From NCBI RefSeq assembly GCF_030506325.1, contig NZ_CP120683.1:3299001-3363000 (forward strand): a stretch of 64,000 bases of DNA. The letters run 5' to 3'. The stretch's first letter is position 1. Each line of letters begins with the position of its first letter. A model generated the notes under the pieces. That model made no database searches. It saw only the letters and a list, made by a program, of their open reading frames with translations, and was not told where the DNA came from. The translations under genes were made by a program, and so were the position numbers. Shown here in pieces: positions 8,815 through 16,446 of this stretch. The DNA is from Tunicatimonas pelagia (GTDB lineage Bacteria > Bacteroidota > Bacteroidia > Cytophagales > Cyclobacteriaceae).

Positions 8815-8960
8815 TAAACTATCGTTCAATTCACTTTTACTACTTTTTAACTAATAGTTTTTGTAACCAGTAATAAGCGAGTAAACACACTATGCTTATC
8901 CTTTAGCAAATGGTAGACACAAAACAGTAGCACAAATATTACTTAAACTATCGTTCAATT
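8815..8960. repeat. Direct repeat of a 17-mer flanking a 112-bp spacer
   Basis: TAAACTATCGTTCAATT occurs at 8815-8831 and 8944-8960. Its inner 15 bases occur again at 11883-11897 inside a coding region. The right copy overlaps the stop codon of the TPR gene. No gene is seen in the spacer. Confidence 0.55.
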
Positions 8961-10790
8961 TATATTAAAATCTCCTCGTAGATTGCGGAAGCGTTTGCGA
9001 ACATCGGCTACGTAAATACTACCGGGATACTCTCGCATAAATTGGGTGTAGAGTTCCATTGCCTTTTCGGTATCTTTTAGCTGTTCTTCGTAGATGCGTC
9101 CCGTCATGAAAAGCGCATCATCACCCAAAATATCGTAATTATACGATTCTGTTATTTTTTCTAACCGACTTAGTGACTGATCAAAGTTCCCCAGCTGCAG
9201 CTGCACCTTGGCTACTAACCAATGTATTTCATCTTCCAACGGATGGCTTTGGTAGGTACTTAGCATACTATCTAACTTAGCTAGAGCTTCTTGCTGCCTA
9301 TTTTGAAACAAAAGCAACTCCGCATCGGCGTAGGCTTGCATCGCAGCACCAGACGTATCTAACGCTGTATTATTTTGAATGAGCAGGCTCAGCGACATAG
9401 CATCGTTGGCAATTTCGCGAGTAGTCGCTTCCTTTAGCACGTTCAAATGATCTTGCGCTAGTTGGAAGTCGCCTTTGTAGTACGACAGTTTGGCGTTACG
9501 TAATTTGGCTTCGTAGCCAACCGGTTCTTCTTTGTGCGCCTTTTCTACTTGAGCGTACAACAGCGTAGATTCCCACGATTGATTCATAAGCACGTAGATG
9601 TCACCCATATCCAGCTTGCTTTGTGCCTTAATTTCCCGACTTGCCTTCGGGTTACTAGTTACTTCCTGAAGAATGGTAATTGCCCGGTCTTTTTCGTTCA
9701 TGTAAAAAGCGTAGAGCAATGCCTGACTTCGCATCGCTTCTAGCGTAGCGGCACTTGGCCCAATGGGTGAGCCTTTACTCTCATCAATAAAATTTTGATA
9801 ATCTTGAATGAGTTTAATAATTTCCTCCTGCTGCACCGGAAATTGGTTTTTTACCAACTCTTCTCGAGCTTTAATCTTGTACCGCCGGGCCGAAACGTAG
9901 TTAGATGTGCGCGGATGACGCTCAATTACGTAATCGTACATTTTGAGCGCATTGTCATAATCTTGGTTTTCCAGCGCGATCTGAGCTACGTTCATTACTT
10001 CGTCGCCATCGGTACGCTGCCGACGATCTACCGCTCGGGCTTGCATAAACGCCCCGTAAAAGTTTTTCTGTTGTAAATTGATCCAGATGAGCAGTTCGCT
10101 ATACAACGGGTTATCAGCATCCTTCTGAATGCGATCTAGCAGCAAATTAGCCATGCTGTCCAAATCTTCATCTTCGGTCAGAATACTTTGCAACACATTT
10201 TTGACGTAGCTAACGCGAGACGGATCCTCATTAGCATAGCTAAGGTATTCTAGTACCATCTGATCCACTTTATTCAGTCGGCGGTATACATTGGCTAATT
10301 CCAGAGCGTAAAGGCTAGGGTCGCCACTGGTTTGCCTTCCTGCCATATAAATGCTCACCGCTCGCTCTATTAACTCATGTTTAATGAGATGGCCCGCCAC
10401 AATACGCACTTGGTAAGTGTCTGTTTTGGCTTTTTCAAATACTTGCGTAAAGTACTTTTCGGCTTCAGCATCTTCACCTTGCCGTAAGTGTACAATGCCC
10501 GCATCTAACTGGTACAAAATATTGGTAGGGTAGTGGCGCAAAGCTTTGGTAAGATATTTTTCCGCTTCGGTTAGATAGCCATTGTTTATTAGCAGCCGAA
10601 AGTAACGGTCGTGGATGATAGGAATGTTTTTCTTTTTCCCGACCAATTCATCGTAGAGCGTTTTTGCTTTTTCAATTTCGCCTTTATCATCGTATTGCTG
10701 CGCTAACTCTATTTGCTGCGTATTTTGCCCATAGGCAAGCATGTTAGCGTTTGTTAGTAAAATAATAACCCAGATTATCGTACGGATCAT
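8955..10790 (-). CDS. Secreted tetratricopeptide-repeat protein
   Basis: A long TPR solenoid with a signal peptide. Repeated units of 34 residues are visible, for example AEKYLTKALRHYPTNILYQL, AEAEKYFTQVFEKAKTD, YDNALKMYDYVIERHP, and the C-terminal KAMELYTQFMREYPGS. The last unit resembles outer-membrane assembly lipoproteins of the BamD/YbgF kind. I take ATG 10790 (MIRTIIWVIILLTNANMLAYGQ), which gives a clean signal peptide; an ATG at 10829 would add 13 polar residues before it. The partner is unknown; TPRs bind other proteins. The gene's 5' end faces the DnaA-box cluster. Confidence 0.8.
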   Translation of the reverse strand: MIRTIIWVIILLTNANMLAYGQNTQQIELAQQYDDKGEIEKAKTLYDELVGKKKNIPIIHDRYFRLLINNGYLTEAEKYLTKALRHYPTNILYQLDAGIVHLRQGEDAEAEKYFTQVFEKAKTDTYQVRIVAGHLIKHELIERAVSIYMAGRQTSGDPSLYALELANVYRRLNKVDQMVLEYLSYANEDPSRVSYVKNVLQSILTEDEDLDSMANLLLDRIQKDADNPLYSELLIWINLQQKNFYGAFMQARAVDRRQRTDGDEVMNVAQIALENQDYDNALKMYDYVIERHPRTSNYVSARRYKIKAREELVKNQFPVQQEEIIKLIQDYQNFIDESKGSPIGPSAATLEAMRSQALLYAFYMNEKDRAITILQEVTSNPKASREIKAQSKLDMGDIYVLMNQSWESTLLYAQVEKAHKEEPVGYEAKLRNAKLSYYKGDFQLAQDHLNVLKEATTREIANDAMSLSLLIQNNTALDTSGAAMQAYADAELLLFQNRQQEALAKLDSMLSTYQSHPLEDEIHWLVAKVQLQLGNFDQSLSRLEKITESYNYDILGDDALFMTGRIYEEQLKDTEKAMELYTQFMREYPGSIYVADVRKRFRNLRGDFNIN

Positions 10791-10829
10791 AGTTTGTGGT
10801 TTGACAGCGGATAACTTTTGAACTAACAT

Positions 10830-11212
10830 ACTACATTATTAATTAATTATTTTTCTTCGAAATTATTATTAATTATTACGCTGTGGATTTGTGAATAACT
10901 CCCGTCAAATAAGCCAATTATTGAGCTTTGTGAATAACTCCGATAATTATCTACAAATTACTAACACACTTATCCACAATTAATCAGTTGACTTACAAAC
11001 ACTTATACGTAAATTATTCATTTGTTAACTAATATGTGGATAACTATATGGATAATATTAAAAGTGCATAACACTGTGTATAACTTACGTTGAGGAGTGA
11101 ATAACCCCCCGAAATGGTGAAATTATTTGAGAGTAGTGAATAACAAGCTGTTTATTAACAAGTTATTGTTAGCTTTTCCACAGGTTATTCACTCGATAAT
11201 GTGGATAACTCC
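10830..11212. other. Cluster of DnaA boxes in AT-rich DNA: candidate chromosomal origin (oriC)
   Basis: Three exact DnaA boxes (TTATCCACA or its inverse TGTGGATAA) lie at 10970-10978, 11035-11043 and 11200-11208. Single-mismatch boxes lie at 10890-10898, 10929-10937, 10947-10955, 11047-11055, 11075-11083 and 11174-11182, with weaker ones at 11096 and 11135. The 13-mer TGTGRATAACTCC occurs three times (10890, 10929 and 11200). An A/T-only-looking stretch at 10835-10880 could serve as the unwinding element. The last boxes run into the 3' end of the next gene. There is no coding region otherwise. mnmG and a parS-like site are 3-6 kb away. Against it: neighbouring genes are not arranged as leading-strand genes on both sides, and dnaA itself is not here. 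Confidence 0.7.
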
Positions 11213-13254
11213 CCAATGATAATGTTGAGATCGCTACGTTCCCAGTTAGCCCGTAGATCAATAATCTCTTCTTCGGTGTAGAAGTAAACTGGTTCGGGTT
11301 CTTCCTGAGAAAGAATGCTACCGGCTTCCCATTCTCCGTCTTCATCGGCATCTACCAAAATTCGGATTTGGTATTTGCCGGGTGGTACCAGCTTGAATGA
11401 GAATTTTTGGGCATCTCTAATTTCTCGGATTAACTCAAACTGTTGGTTGAGTAGTTGCACAGTGTAGCGGGGGTATTCGGTGGTTACCGTGCCACTAATG
11501 GCTCCGTAATCTTCAGGATTTTTGAATGAGAATTTTTGGATGATTTGTTCACTGCTGTCGTTTTCTACACTCATAAAACTTCCTCCGCTCGCGTAAAAAT
11601 TGAAGGAGCGTAAATCGGTAGTAACTTCTTCTCGGTCGTAAGTTTTGGGTAAAAACTGTTGGTTAATCTGGGTGGTGTCTACATAACTTGTAAGTAAGGC
11701 GAGTTTAGCCTCTTCTTCCTCTAGCGATTTAATGCTATCGAGAACAGCTCGATCTGGATTTGCTTTCTTAGCTATTACAAATTGCTGTAGCCAACCGAGG
11801 CGGTTTTCTCCAGAAGCATCAGTTTCATTTTTCAGACTGTCTAAATAAACGGTTTGTTGGCGGACTCTATCTTTGTAAGATGAACTATCGTTCAATTTTA
11901 GGTAATAAATTACGCTATCCACAATCTGCGACTGATCTACGGGTACATCTAGTCCAACCTGATCGGAATGTTCGCTCCACTGGAGCGCTTGGCTATAATC
12001 GATGGGTAGATAAAATAGTGTATCGTAGCTCAATAAGATACTATCAGTATTTATTTGGGCAACGGGTTTAGAAAATACGAAAGTACCTGAGATAGTATCT
12101 GTAACTTCGTTGTCACCTGATATAAACTGAGTAGTGAAATCAGCAATCTTTCGGCGACTTTCAGTAAACTTCAAATAAAGCAGAGTATCGGGCAGTAATT
12201 GTTGAGCGGAGTCAGTAGCTGAAATAGTAATGGCTAAACTATCTTGCTTTAACGTATTGTAAATACGAACGACTTTTTGCTCATCTTGAAAATTGCTAAA
12301 CAGCACAATGCTAGTATCAGATAGATTGAATGCAACTGAATCTTTTAGAAAATCCAGCGTAGCCTGGCCAACCCGCTCGGCTGCTGAAAGCGAATAACTG
12401 TCTAGTGACTTATTGAATTTTATCTCAAAGTATTTTCCATTAACCCGAGCACTTTGCAACCGAATGGGGCGAATGTCTTGCCGTTGAATAACTAGGTCTC
12501 TGATTTTATTTAATGCGTAAACCGAGTCAGTAATAGTTATTGAATCGGCCTGAACCAACTTATTAATGTCGGTTCCTAAGTACACCGGTTCAGATTTAAA
12601 ACCGAAGGGTTCGTTATTTGAGTCAATTTTCAGGTTGCCATTTTCATCAACGTAGGCGTATATATTGTATAAGCCTTCCCGAATGTAGCGGATAGTATAG
12701 TCACCGCCTGTATCGGTTTTCGCTAAATACATGGGTGGGCCAGTGAAAGCATCTAACGTATCGTTCACATCATAAAGCGCAACCACCACATCCTCAACAG
12801 GCTGTTGGGTCATCAAAGCTCGAACGTTACCGCTTACCTGAAAGGAGTCAATTTCGGGCCCAGTACTAAACGCAACGATCAGATTTTCGGCAGGATTTTT
12901 TTCCGAAGCGTCTTTAATTCCCTCTCGGAAGTTAAAAGTATAGGTAGTGCTATCCCTCAGTTCTTCCTCAATTTCTAAAAAGAGCGTTCGTTTGCTTACG
13001 TAAAAACTATAATCCTCTATTGGTGGGGTGATAATAAGCTCTTGCTTTAGTTCGCGGCCTTCTATGTACTCGTCAAATTCTAGCTCAATCTTATCTTCAT
13101 CGAAATTAACGGTTTCTAACTCAGGGTACATTCTGACTAATTTGGGTGGGATAGAATCTTTTGGTCCACCAGTGGGAGTTCCTTGTCGGGCACACGATCC
13201 AACCATGATTAGCAAAACCCAAAGTGCGAGTAACCAACTGTATTGTTTTATCAT
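11185..13254 (-). CDS. Ig-like (Big_5/SbsA) domain lipoprotein
   Basis: A 689-residue exported lipoprotein with lipobox MVGSC, C20. The segment GTPTGGPKDSIPPKLVRMYP followed by FDEDKIELEFDEYIE (about residues 25-65) is the Ig-like Big_5 domain found at the N-terminus of many Bacteroidota lipoproteins. A CarboxypepD_reg- or SdrD-like beta domain follows around residues 140-215 (GLYNIYAYVDENGNLKIDS). The end carries a second such domain (VPPGKYQIRILVDADEDGEW). It is probably a surface or periplasmic structural protein. Its last codons contain a DnaA box, so its 3' end overlaps the candidate origin. Confidence 0.8.
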   Translation of the reverse strand: MIKQYSWLLALWVLLIMVGSCARQGTPTGGPKDSIPPKLVRMYPELETVNFDEDKIELEFDEYIEGRELKQELIITPPIEDYSFYVSKRTLFLEIEEELRDSTTYTFNFREGIKDASEKNPAENLIVAFSTGPEIDSFQVSGNVRALMTQQPVEDVVVALYDVNDTLDAFTGPPMYLAKTDTGGDYTIRYIREGLYNIYAYVDENGNLKIDSNNEPFGFKSEPVYLGTDINKLVQADSITITDSVYALNKIRDLVIQRQDIRPIRLQSARVNGKYFEIKFNKSLDSYSLSAAERVGQATLDFLKDSVAFNLSDTSIVLFSNFQDEQKVVRIYNTLKQDSLAITISATDSAQQLLPDTLLYLKFTESRRKIADFTTQFISGDNEVTDTISGTFVFSKPVAQINTDSILLSYDTLFYLPIDYSQALQWSEHSDQVGLDVPVDQSQIVDSVIYYLKLNDSSSYKDRVRQQTVYLDSLKNETDASGENRLGWLQQFVIAKKANPDRAVLDSIKSLEEEEAKLALLTSYVDTTQINQQFLPKTYDREEVTTDLRSFNFYASGGSFMSVENDSSEQIIQKFSFKNPEDYGAISGTVTTEYPRYTVQLLNQQFELIREIRDAQKFSFKLVPPGKYQIRILVDADEDGEWEAGSILSQEEPEPVYFYTEEEIIDLRANWERSDLNIIIGELSTLSSE

Positions 13255-14580: not shown

Positions 14581-16446
14581 CTATTTGCCGAGATAAATCA
14601 TAATGACTGACACATCTGCCGGAGACACGCCGCTAATCCGGGAAGCTTGACCAATCGTTTGTGGACGAATTTTTCCTAGCTTCTCACGTGCTTCAGTTGA
14701 CAATGCTTTTACGGTGTTGTAATCGAAGTCACCGGGAATTCGGTAATCTTCCAAACTTTCCACTCGCTCGGCGTGCTGGCGTTCTTTTTCCAAATAGCTT
14801 TCGTACTTGGTCAGAATTTCTACTTGTTCTTTTACCTCCTCGTCTATTGGCTGGAAGTATTTTTGTAAAGTAGAATCAAGTTTTACTAAAGTTTTAACCG
14901 TAATTTCGGGACGCTTTAGTAACTGATGAATACTTACTTTTTCTTTAATAGTAGCAGTCGATATTTCATCTAGCCCTTCGTTTATTTCCTGGGGAGCAGC
15001 TTTTCGTTGTTTAATTTCGGTCATTACTTCTTTAATAGCATTCCGCTTATCAAATACTTTTTCTAAACGCGAATTATCAATTAGCCCGAGCTGGTGCCCC
15101 TTTTCGGTAAGTCGTAGGTCAGCATTATCCTGCCGGAGCAACAGTCGAAACTCGGCTCGGGAAGTAAACATTCGGTAGGGCTCTTCGGTACCCTTATTAA
15201 TTAAATCATCAATTAGTACTCCAATGTAGGCTTCAGATCGGCGCAAAATGAGGGGTTCCTGCTCTTGAACCTTAAGGTGAGCGTTGATACCAGCCATCAG
15301 ACCTTGGCAAGCCGCTTCTTCGTAACCGGTAGTTCCATTAATTTGCCCAGCGAAAAATAGATTCTCAATCACTTTAGTTTCTAAACTTAGCGAAAGTTGC
15401 GTCGGTGGAAAATAGTCATATTCAATGGCGTAGCCGGGACGAAATAATTTAGCGTTCTCAAAACCAGGAATATGGCGGATGGCTTGGTGCTGTACTTCTT
15501 CGGGTAATGAAGTAGAAAACCCGTTAACGTATACTTCCACCGTATCCCAGCCTTCGGGTTCTACAAATATCTGGTGGCGTTCGCGCTCGGCAAATCGGTT
15601 AATTTTATCTTCAATCGACGGACAATATCGCGGACCTTGCGCCTGGATTCGTCCGTTAAACATGGGTGAACGATCAAACCCGCTTTCTAATACTTCGTGA
15701 ACAGTAGGGTTCGTATACGTAATATGGCAGCTTCGCTGATGCGTGAGTGGCTGAGTATCGGTAAACGAAAACTTACCAGGGTTTTCATCACCGGGCTGCT
15801 CTTCCATTTTGCTATAGTCTAGTGAGCGACCGTCTACTCGGGGTGGAGTCCCGGTTTTCATTCGTCCGGCCTCAAATTCCAAACTGATAAGTTGCTCGGT
15901 AATCCCTTTAGAAGCCCGCTCACCCGAACGCCCTCCGCCCATCTGCTTGTCACCAATATGGATTAAGCCATTCAGAAATGTACCATTGGTTAAGATAACG
16001 GTTTGGGATTTAATCTCCAGTCCGATACTGGTTTTCACTCCTACCACCTTCTCCCCTTCTACCAGAATTTCGGCCACCATTTCTTGCAGAAAGTCTAGGT
16101 TTGGAATTTTCTCCAATTGCATTCGCCAAGCCTCGGTGAAACGCGCCCGATCATTTTGGGTTCTTGGACTCCACATGGCCGGGCCTTTAGAGCGGTTTAG
16201 CATTCGAAACTGAATGGCTGATACATCAGTAACAATACCAGACAGTCCGCCCAGCGCATCAATTTCCCGAACAATTTGCCCTTTGGCTACACCACCCATT
16301 GCCGGATTACAAGACATCTGACCCATTTTGGCCATATCCATTGTGATAAGTAATGTTTTAGAACCCAAGTTTGCGGCAGCGGCGGCAGCCTCATTTCCAG
16401 CGTGCCCTGCTCCTACCACAACTACATCGTATTTTTCGAATAGCAT
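14581..16446 (-). CDS. mnmG: tRNA uridine-5-carboxymethylaminomethyl(34) synthesis enzyme MnmG
   Basis: An FAD enzyme that works with MnmE (GTPase) to modify the wobble uridine of several tRNAs. The N-terminal dinucleotide fold is VVVVGAGHAGNEAAAAAANLG (first glycine near residue 12). The family signature MSCNPAMGGVAKGQIVREIDALGG is at residues 45-68, and TGTPPRVDG near residue 200. Length, 621 residues, is standard. ATG 16446. mnmG (gidA) sits beside the replication origin in many bacteria. Here a parS-like site lies 259 bp upstream and a DnaA-box cluster 3.4 kb downstream. Confidence 0.97.
   Translation of the reverse strand: MLFEKYDVVVVGAGHAGNEAAAAAANLGSKTLLITMDMAKMGQMSCNPAMGGVAKGQIVREIDALGGLSGIVTDVSAIQFRMLNRSKGPAMWSPRTQNDRARFTEAWRMQLEKIPNLDFLQEMVAEILVEGEKVVGVKTSIGLEIKSQTVILTNGTFLNGLIHIGDKQMGGGRSGERASKGITEQLISLEFEAGRMKTGTPPRVDGRSLDYSKMEEQPGDENPGKFSFTDTQPLTHQRSCHITYTNPTVHEVLESGFDRSPMFNGRIQAQGPRYCPSIEDKINRFAERERHQIFVEPEGWDTVEVYVNGFSTSLPEEVQHQAIRHIPGFENAKLFRPGYAIEYDYFPPTQLSLSLETKVIENLFFAGQINGTTGYEEAACQGLMAGINAHLKVQEQEPLILRRSEAYIGVLIDDLINKGTEEPYRMFTSRAEFRLLLRQDNADLRLTEKGHQLGLIDNSRLEKVFDKRNAIKEVMTEIKQRKAAPQEINEGLDEISTATIKEKVSIHQLLKRPEITVKTLVKLDSTLQKYFQPIDEEVKEQVEILTKYESYLEKERQHAERVESLEDYRIPGDFDYNTVKALSTEAREKLGKIRPQTIGQASRISGVSPADVSVIMIYLGK

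Follow-up and report, generated by a model that had tools for sequence, protein, structure and literature searches.

The predicted replication origin region of Tunicatimonas pelagia is located in a window of 64,000 nucleotides (C1:3299001-3363000), which is the whole stretch of DNA analysed here. The genome of 7.29 Mb comprises four contigs, of which C1 has 7,171,967 bp. In the window, a cluster of DnaA boxes is situated between a gene encoding a TPR-repeat protein and a gene encoding a bacterial Ig-like protein, and extends into the last codons of the latter (Table 1). The gene mnmG (gidA), whose identity is given by a TIGR00136 match above the cut-off, lies at a distance of 3.37 kb from the cluster, in agreement with the 3.4 kb of the original prediction, which was made from the sequence alone. 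The homology of the TPR protein begins about 13-20 residues past the annotated ATG (window 10787-10829); translation may therefore begin at a downstream ATG, which would make the intergenic origin region slightly longer. In addition, at loci L089 and L090 (genomes G017 and G033) and also in G059 and G117, the TPR match falls into two parts that share an open frame, which suggests that some members of the family carry an insertion around residue 520. An Rfam bacterial SSU search of the T. pelagia genome (99.89% complete) found no 16S gene, the same search being positive in 9 of 14 control genomes.

Table 1. Features of the predicted origin region and its flanks (window coordinates)
Feature	Position	Strand	Basis
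TPR-repeat protein gene flanking the predicted oriC	8955..10829	-	ORF, Pfam TPR families
Least stable 50-mer, putative DNA unwinding element	10829..10878		nearest-neighbour stability, rank 1 of 63951
Predicted oriC, DnaA-box cluster between TPR and Ig-like genes	10830..11212		9 boxes and skew switch
Conserved putative unwinding element: A/T tract, short G/C spacer, tandem boxes	10854..10899	+	EM motif
Triplet tract TTATTATTAATTATTAC	10863..10879	+	sequence; three-base periodicity in relatives
Weak DnaA box TGTGGATTT, two mismatches	10882..10890	-	tract-proximal member of tandem pair; conserved position
DnaA box TTATTCACA	10890..10898	-	one mismatch
DnaA box TTATTCACA	10929..10937	-	one mismatch
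DnaA box TTATCTACA	10947..10955	+	one mismatch
DnaA box, exact TTATCCACA	10970..10978	+	pattern scan
DnaA box, exact TTATCCACA	11035..11043	-	pattern scan
DnaA box TTATCCATA	11047..11055	-	one mismatch
DnaA box TTATACACA	11075..11083	-	one mismatch
DnaA box TTTTCCACA	11174..11182	+	one mismatch
Bacterial Ig-like (Big_5) protein gene flanking the predicted oriC	11185..13254	-	ORF, PF13205
DnaA box, exact TTATCCACA	11200..11208	-	within 3' end of Ig-like gene
mnmG (gidA)	14581..16446	-	TIGR00136 above cut-off

The cluster consists of nine DnaA boxes in 383 bp, three of which are exact copies of TTATCCACA and six of which deviate by one mismatch; the pattern scan recovered all the boxes of the original prediction, and its 13-mer in three copies was found as TGTGRATAACTCC at 10890, 10929 and 11200. 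Some boxes of the cluster are spaced at 39-40 bp. The weak box at 10882-10890 and the box next to it share base 10890, and the core is one box longer than in the earlier listing. Dinucleotide shuffles of the segment (n=2000) contained 0.18 boxes on average and never more than 3, compared to the nine observed. For exact boxes, the same shuffles gave a mean of 0.006 and a maximum of 1, compared to the three observed, which bears out the claim that three exact copies so close together are most unlikely to be random. In shuffles of the whole window (n=100), no stretch of 330 bp contained more than three boxes, against nine here. The total of 20 boxes in the window (up to one mismatch), reached by 13 of the 100 shuffles, is not unusual; as this total is ordinary and the local density extreme, it is the clustering that goes beyond chance. 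The chance rate of a 9-mer had been given per strand, whereas about one per 131 kb holds for both strands together. Genome-wide, 60 exact boxes were found in 7.29 Mb, and only at this cluster do three of them fall inside 250 bp; the relaxed box pattern TTATNCACA occurs at no fewer than 100 places in the genome.

An inverted box pair (GTTATTCAC-TCGATAAT-GTGGATAAC) lies across the stop codon of the Ig-like gene at 11184-11209. This block is identical in the window and its three closest relatives except for one base (T or C), and the adjoining coding sequence has diverged among the four. The pair is possibly a second conserved origin module.

Strand-composition skew was sampled in 40 spread stretches of 20 kb and then in 20 more, 17 of them between 3.14 and 3.82 Mb, which together cover about 18% of the 7.17-Mb contig, more densely near the candidate. 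The raw cumulative skew of the 40 stretches is weak, with a minimum at 4.24 Mb and a plateau from about 3.2 Mb. As gene orientation confounds the raw skew, fourfold-degenerate sites were counted separately for the genes of each strand. Corrected in this way for orientation, the skew is for the most part below zero as far as 3.20 Mb and above zero from 3.40 Mb onward; the stretches at 1.90, 2.98, 3.70, 4.06 and 6.40 Mb, as well as that at 3.42 Mb and parts of others, run against the fit. A two-switch likelihood fit that used no dif site placed the origin at 3.30 Mb (60-kb grid); the runner-up, 3.24 Mb, trails by 3.9 units once the log-likelihood is divided by the overdispersion of 2.35, and an origin placed at dnaA lowers the log-likelihood by about 89 units before this division. 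When the terminus was set to the dif-like site described below, a 5-kb grid placed the switch at 3,310,000 (support set 3.290-3.320 Mb), and the cluster (C1:3,309,830-3,310,212) is located inside this set.

The skew analysis proposed along with the original prediction, run on the sampled stretches, supports it after correction: the orientation-corrected switch lies on the cluster, whereas the raw cumulative minimum disagrees at 4.24 Mb. The true origin might be sought elsewhere on the skew plateau of 3.2-4.3 Mb, with the cluster as a former or secondary origin, in keeping with this raw minimum and with the negative stretches at 3.70 and 4.06 Mb. However, the likelihood after orientation correction points to 3.29-3.32 Mb, and between 3.3 and 4.3 Mb neither an exact-box cluster nor an element of equal quality was found, so that we regard such a displacement as highly improbable. 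Elsewhere in the genome, likewise, neither an equally good exact-box cluster, the kind of competitor that the original prediction had allowed for, nor an equally good unwinding element was found. Gene orientation, which was noted not to flip around the cluster, carries little weight as an objection because its bias is weak across the sampled genome.

The fitted terminus is at about 6.8 Mb (200-kb grid), roughly opposite the cluster. Near it, at C1:6845347-6845370 on the minus strand, lies a dif-like 24-mer ending TTATGTTAAAT; its position, its inner symmetry and its location between convergent ORFs speak for this candidate. This candidate is 3.535 Mb from the cluster, compared to 3.586 Mb for the exact opposite point. 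With two mismatches allowed, the dif-like pattern occurs at four places and a reversed control pattern at three, so the match alone is not above chance. The gene dnaA (C1:25-1413), at which the contig record begins, and the cluster are 3.31 Mb apart, a distance that amounts to about 92% of the half-circle; from dnaA to the dif-like site it is about 0.33 Mb. No box cluster is present in the 20 kb from dnaA onward, which contain four boxes and never two within 330 bp. The absence of dnaA near the cluster had been raised against the original prediction; the gene is indeed absent, but this weighs little, given that a large distance between oriC and dnaA is common in Bacteroidetes according to the available text of PMC4755523.

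All eight family genomes examined have the TPR locus and dnaA on one contig, at least 0.85 Mb apart. In one-contig family genomes, with the TPR locus taken as the origin and the contigs taken as circles, the distance is about 0.90 Mb in G036, 0.86 Mb in G030, 0.96 Mb in G028 and 2.41 Mb in G012. In the last of these, a 70% relative, dnaA is at 88% of the half-circle; together with the 92% of T. pelagia, this places dnaA far towards the terminus in the window's own genome and in one close relative. Contig C1 of both G012 and G030 also carries several short DnaA-like AAA matches (about 100 aa, below the cut-off) in repeated copies, which are perhaps IstB-like transposon helper ATPases.

By the TPR gene, the nearest named relatives are an uncultured Flammeovirgaceae MAG (85%) and Catalimonadaceae bacterium JC749 (70%). 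A TPR-gene match was found in 29 of 41 family genomes, T. pelagia included. Among the 28 relatives, the best 400-bp box cluster, small in some of them, is wholly upstream of the TPR match in 24 and straddles its start in three, and in the remaining one (L065) the locus is cut by a contig end. Of 80 named loci, 54 have a box score of at least 5 in 500 bp within the upstream stretch, 68 have mnmG and 76 have a match to the Ig-like gene. Ten of the 12 loci without mnmG have less than 3 kb of upstream sequence, ended by a contig end; the other two, L149 and L163, have full flanks, lack both mnmG and the Ig-like gene, and contain 0 and 1 box, respectively.

Motif analysis by EM of 99 regions preceding the TPR gene revealed one element, shared by 97 of them, that of the window included. 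It consists of an A/T tract ending TTATTATTATTTATTA(G), two to three bases, and then TGTGGATAnGTGGATAA. The 99 regions were obtained from 109 (80 named and 29 of the family, with T. pelagia) after removal of three that were too short and seven duplicates, and some near-identical relatives remain among them. The two misses are L149 and L163, and the copies of L153 (9.5 bits) and L088 (11.6 bits) are weak. The window copy scores 33.0 bits, compared to 8.0 bits for the best competing site in 78 named-locus regions; with a matrix built without the window and the 85% relative, it scores 32.9 bits and the next best site 10.2 bits (about 1.26 Mb, both strands). The suggested search for the same box cluster beside the TPR and mnmG genes of relatives showed the element at the same gene in most of the relatives examined. 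Among the order loci, taken from 88 matching genomes other than T. pelagia as the 29 with the highest scores, 16 score at least 10 bits upstream of the TPR gene, L194 and L190 weakly, and in L193 and L194 the element is 0.5-0.8 kb from the TPR gene. The element is absent upstream of the TPR gene in the other 13 order loci, which counts against the reading as an origin. Eleven of these have 0-1 boxes, and therefore the origin has probably moved in some families; L185 and L189 have 16-17 boxes.

The A/T-rich stretch predicted at 10835-10880 coincides largely with the least stable 50-mer of the window, which begins at 10829; in a stability scan of 100-mers, the best of the region ranks 67 of 63901 in the window. 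Read 3' to 5' from the boxes, the triplets of the tract are CAT TAT TAA and, after a one-base slip, TAT TAT TAA, which are trio-like (3'-NAN-5'). The basal unwinding system (BUS), known from B. subtilis and others, is described in the available text of PMC8287927 and PMC6669920 as DnaA boxes, a spacer and DnaA-trios. The run CAT TAT TAA at 10879-10871 provides the three or more 3'-NAN-5' triplets no more than 16 bp from a DnaA box by which a BUS is recognized, and sits two bases from the weak box at 10882-10890. The commonest triplet, 3'-GAT-5', is not beside the box in the window copy, where CAT is found instead. Judged by its sequence, the element with its triplets fits the BUS pattern as published in the available text of PMC8287927.

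Further analysis of the relatives revealed runs of at least three triplets near a box in 61 of 97 family elements (24.7 in shuffles) and in 19 of 24 elements from other lineages (8.6 in shuffles). In the 24 nt beside the boxes, the three-base periodicity at lag 3 is 0.502 compared to 0.354 (z 15.5) over the 97 family elements, which are related to one another and aligned by the same motif. For other lineages, z is 6.5 over 24 elements found with the model, 5 of 29 loci having been left out as belonging to the same family or order. The family elements are also periodic, though more weakly (0.388 compared to 0.321, z 7.5), in a control tract at a distance of 36-60 nt; the A/T-rich flank in general therefore accounts for part of the signal. 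The tandem boxes of the 97 family elements have a pitch of 8 bp in 76, 9 in 14, 10 in 5 and 11 in 2, counts that lean towards 8 because the EM was seeded with a double box and the model R1 was built from pitch-8 elements. Tandem DnaA boxes overlapping by one base are possibly a new feature; in the available text of the literature on the BUS, no description of such an arrangement was found.

The model R1 has 34 rows including the window; alignment A2 contains 33 of 54 selected loci and the window. In the T. pelagia genome, where 150 of 2607 first-look candidates were scored, the window copy has an E-value of 1.9e-9, and two others appear at E<=10 (0.42 and 8.3). Across the phylum, R1 matches 46 of 296 genomes, T. 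pelagia included, at E<=0.01, in a search under stricter filters such that lack of a match is not evidence of another mechanism. In 20 R1-matching genomes, the neighbours of the element include dnaA in four (G225, G170, G369 and G342) and none of the query genes in 12, and mnmG is 4-7 kb from the element in four (G152, G412, G176 and G394). In G225 and G170, distant members of the phylum and the two checked of the four with dnaA, the element lies between dnaA and dnaN. Other neighbours in the phylum are the genes for priA, seryl-tRNA synthetase and D-Tyr-tRNA deacylase. Moreover, the place of the element was compared with the skew of four one-contig genomes (ten stretches each), by the TPR locus in G036 and G030 of the family and by the R1 match in G394 and G420 of other families. 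Plain GC skew gave this place as the best origin in all four, and the orientation-corrected skew agreed in three, with the best position in G036 one tenth of the genome away.

These neighbourhoods bear on two other explanations of the cluster. As most named loci have the element immediately before the TPR match, the region might serve as a DnaA-regulated promoter of the TPR gene, unrelated to the start of replication. This is barely credible, however, since elsewhere the element stands beside the other genes listed above, and in G394 and G420 the skew follows it although no TPR match was found in the 18 kb examined. Clusters of DnaA boxes are also carried by loci such as datA or DARS of E. coli, and a role in DnaA titration or DnaA recycling, instead of an origin, is conceivable on that ground. 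We consider this very unlikely: the skew switch falls at the cluster, the element adjoins a triplet-periodic A/T tract and in other lineages lies between dnaA and dnaN, and no better cluster was found in the genome that could act as the origin. Both datA and DARS are named for E. coli in the available text of PMC13036160.

Altogether, the corrected skew switch on the cluster, the unique exact-box cluster and the occurrence of the element at the same gene in most relatives uphold the original prediction, and we identify the region 10830-11212 as the chromosomal replication origin (oriC) with a probability of about 0.94. The boxes, the skew switch and the conservation of the element and its neighbours are observations of this analysis, and DnaA binding, opening and helicase loading are inferred. 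DnaA from the distant gene would bind the box array, and at its left edge the two tandem boxes facing the A/T tract would seed a DnaA filament. This filament may capture the triplet-periodic strand at 10863-10879 and open the least stable DNA of the window; helicases would then load, and two forks leave towards the terminus near 6.8 Mb. Opening at this oriC probably works in the way of a BUS. More broadly, there is an even chance that boxes sharing one base and a triplet tract form a portable opening module across Bacteroidota, which was kept through the separation of oriC from dnaA and moved among neighbourhoods, with dnaA here near the terminus, the place of lowest gene dosage. In the available text of the literature on DnaA-trios and on replication origins in Bacteroidetes and Cytophagales, no description of the conserved element was found, and Bacteroidetes go unmentioned in the main text of PMC8287927, as far as available.

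The assignment places the origin of a 7.2-Mb chromosome far from dnaA, where its record starts; for this genome, estimating growth or plotting skew on the assumption of an origin at dnaA would lead to wrong results. In a phylum whose origins cannot be located by means of dnaA, the conserved element offers a simple way of testing for them by sequence, and the role of the overlapping boxes can now be tested in vitro.

The oriC of E. coli resembles that of T. pelagia in that it lies apart from dnaA and near mnmG (gidA), with an A/T-rich element on one side of the box array. The BUS score of E. coli is relatively weak, and separation from dnaA is coupled with a weak BUS in the available text of PMC8287927; by contrast, a BUS-like module is kept here despite the distant dnaA, which suggests that such a module can survive this separation. 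Compared to the B. subtilis-type BUS, the element has the same order of tandem boxes, short spacer and 3'-NAN-5' triplets, but its two boxes share one base (pitch 8 bp), whereas the published search permits up to 3 bp between boxes (PMC8287927, available text). The window copy also differs in having CAT, TAT and TAA with no GAT, and its oriC and dnaA are apart; the form of the BUS given as the commonest, though not a required one, has 3'-GAT-5' adjoining the box (PMC8287927, available text).

Within Bacteroidota, the skew switch of Prevotella intermedia OMA14 is likewise remote from dnaA and carries multiple DnaA boxes (PMC4755523). In Mariniflexile litorale (PMC11278836) and Algorimicrobium bowmanii KMM 8389 (PMC12843772), both Flavobacteriaceae, oriC was placed by Ori-Finder and skew at mnmG, the gene that also neighbours the origin described here. 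As both are published for Bacteroidota in the available text of these three papers, the location at mnmG and the separation from dnaA are not new in kind. The TPR and Ig-like flanks and the element, in contrast, are not described in that text for the three origins, and a further difference from the published remote origins of Bacteroidota is the distance to dnaA, which here corresponds to about 92% of the half-circle.
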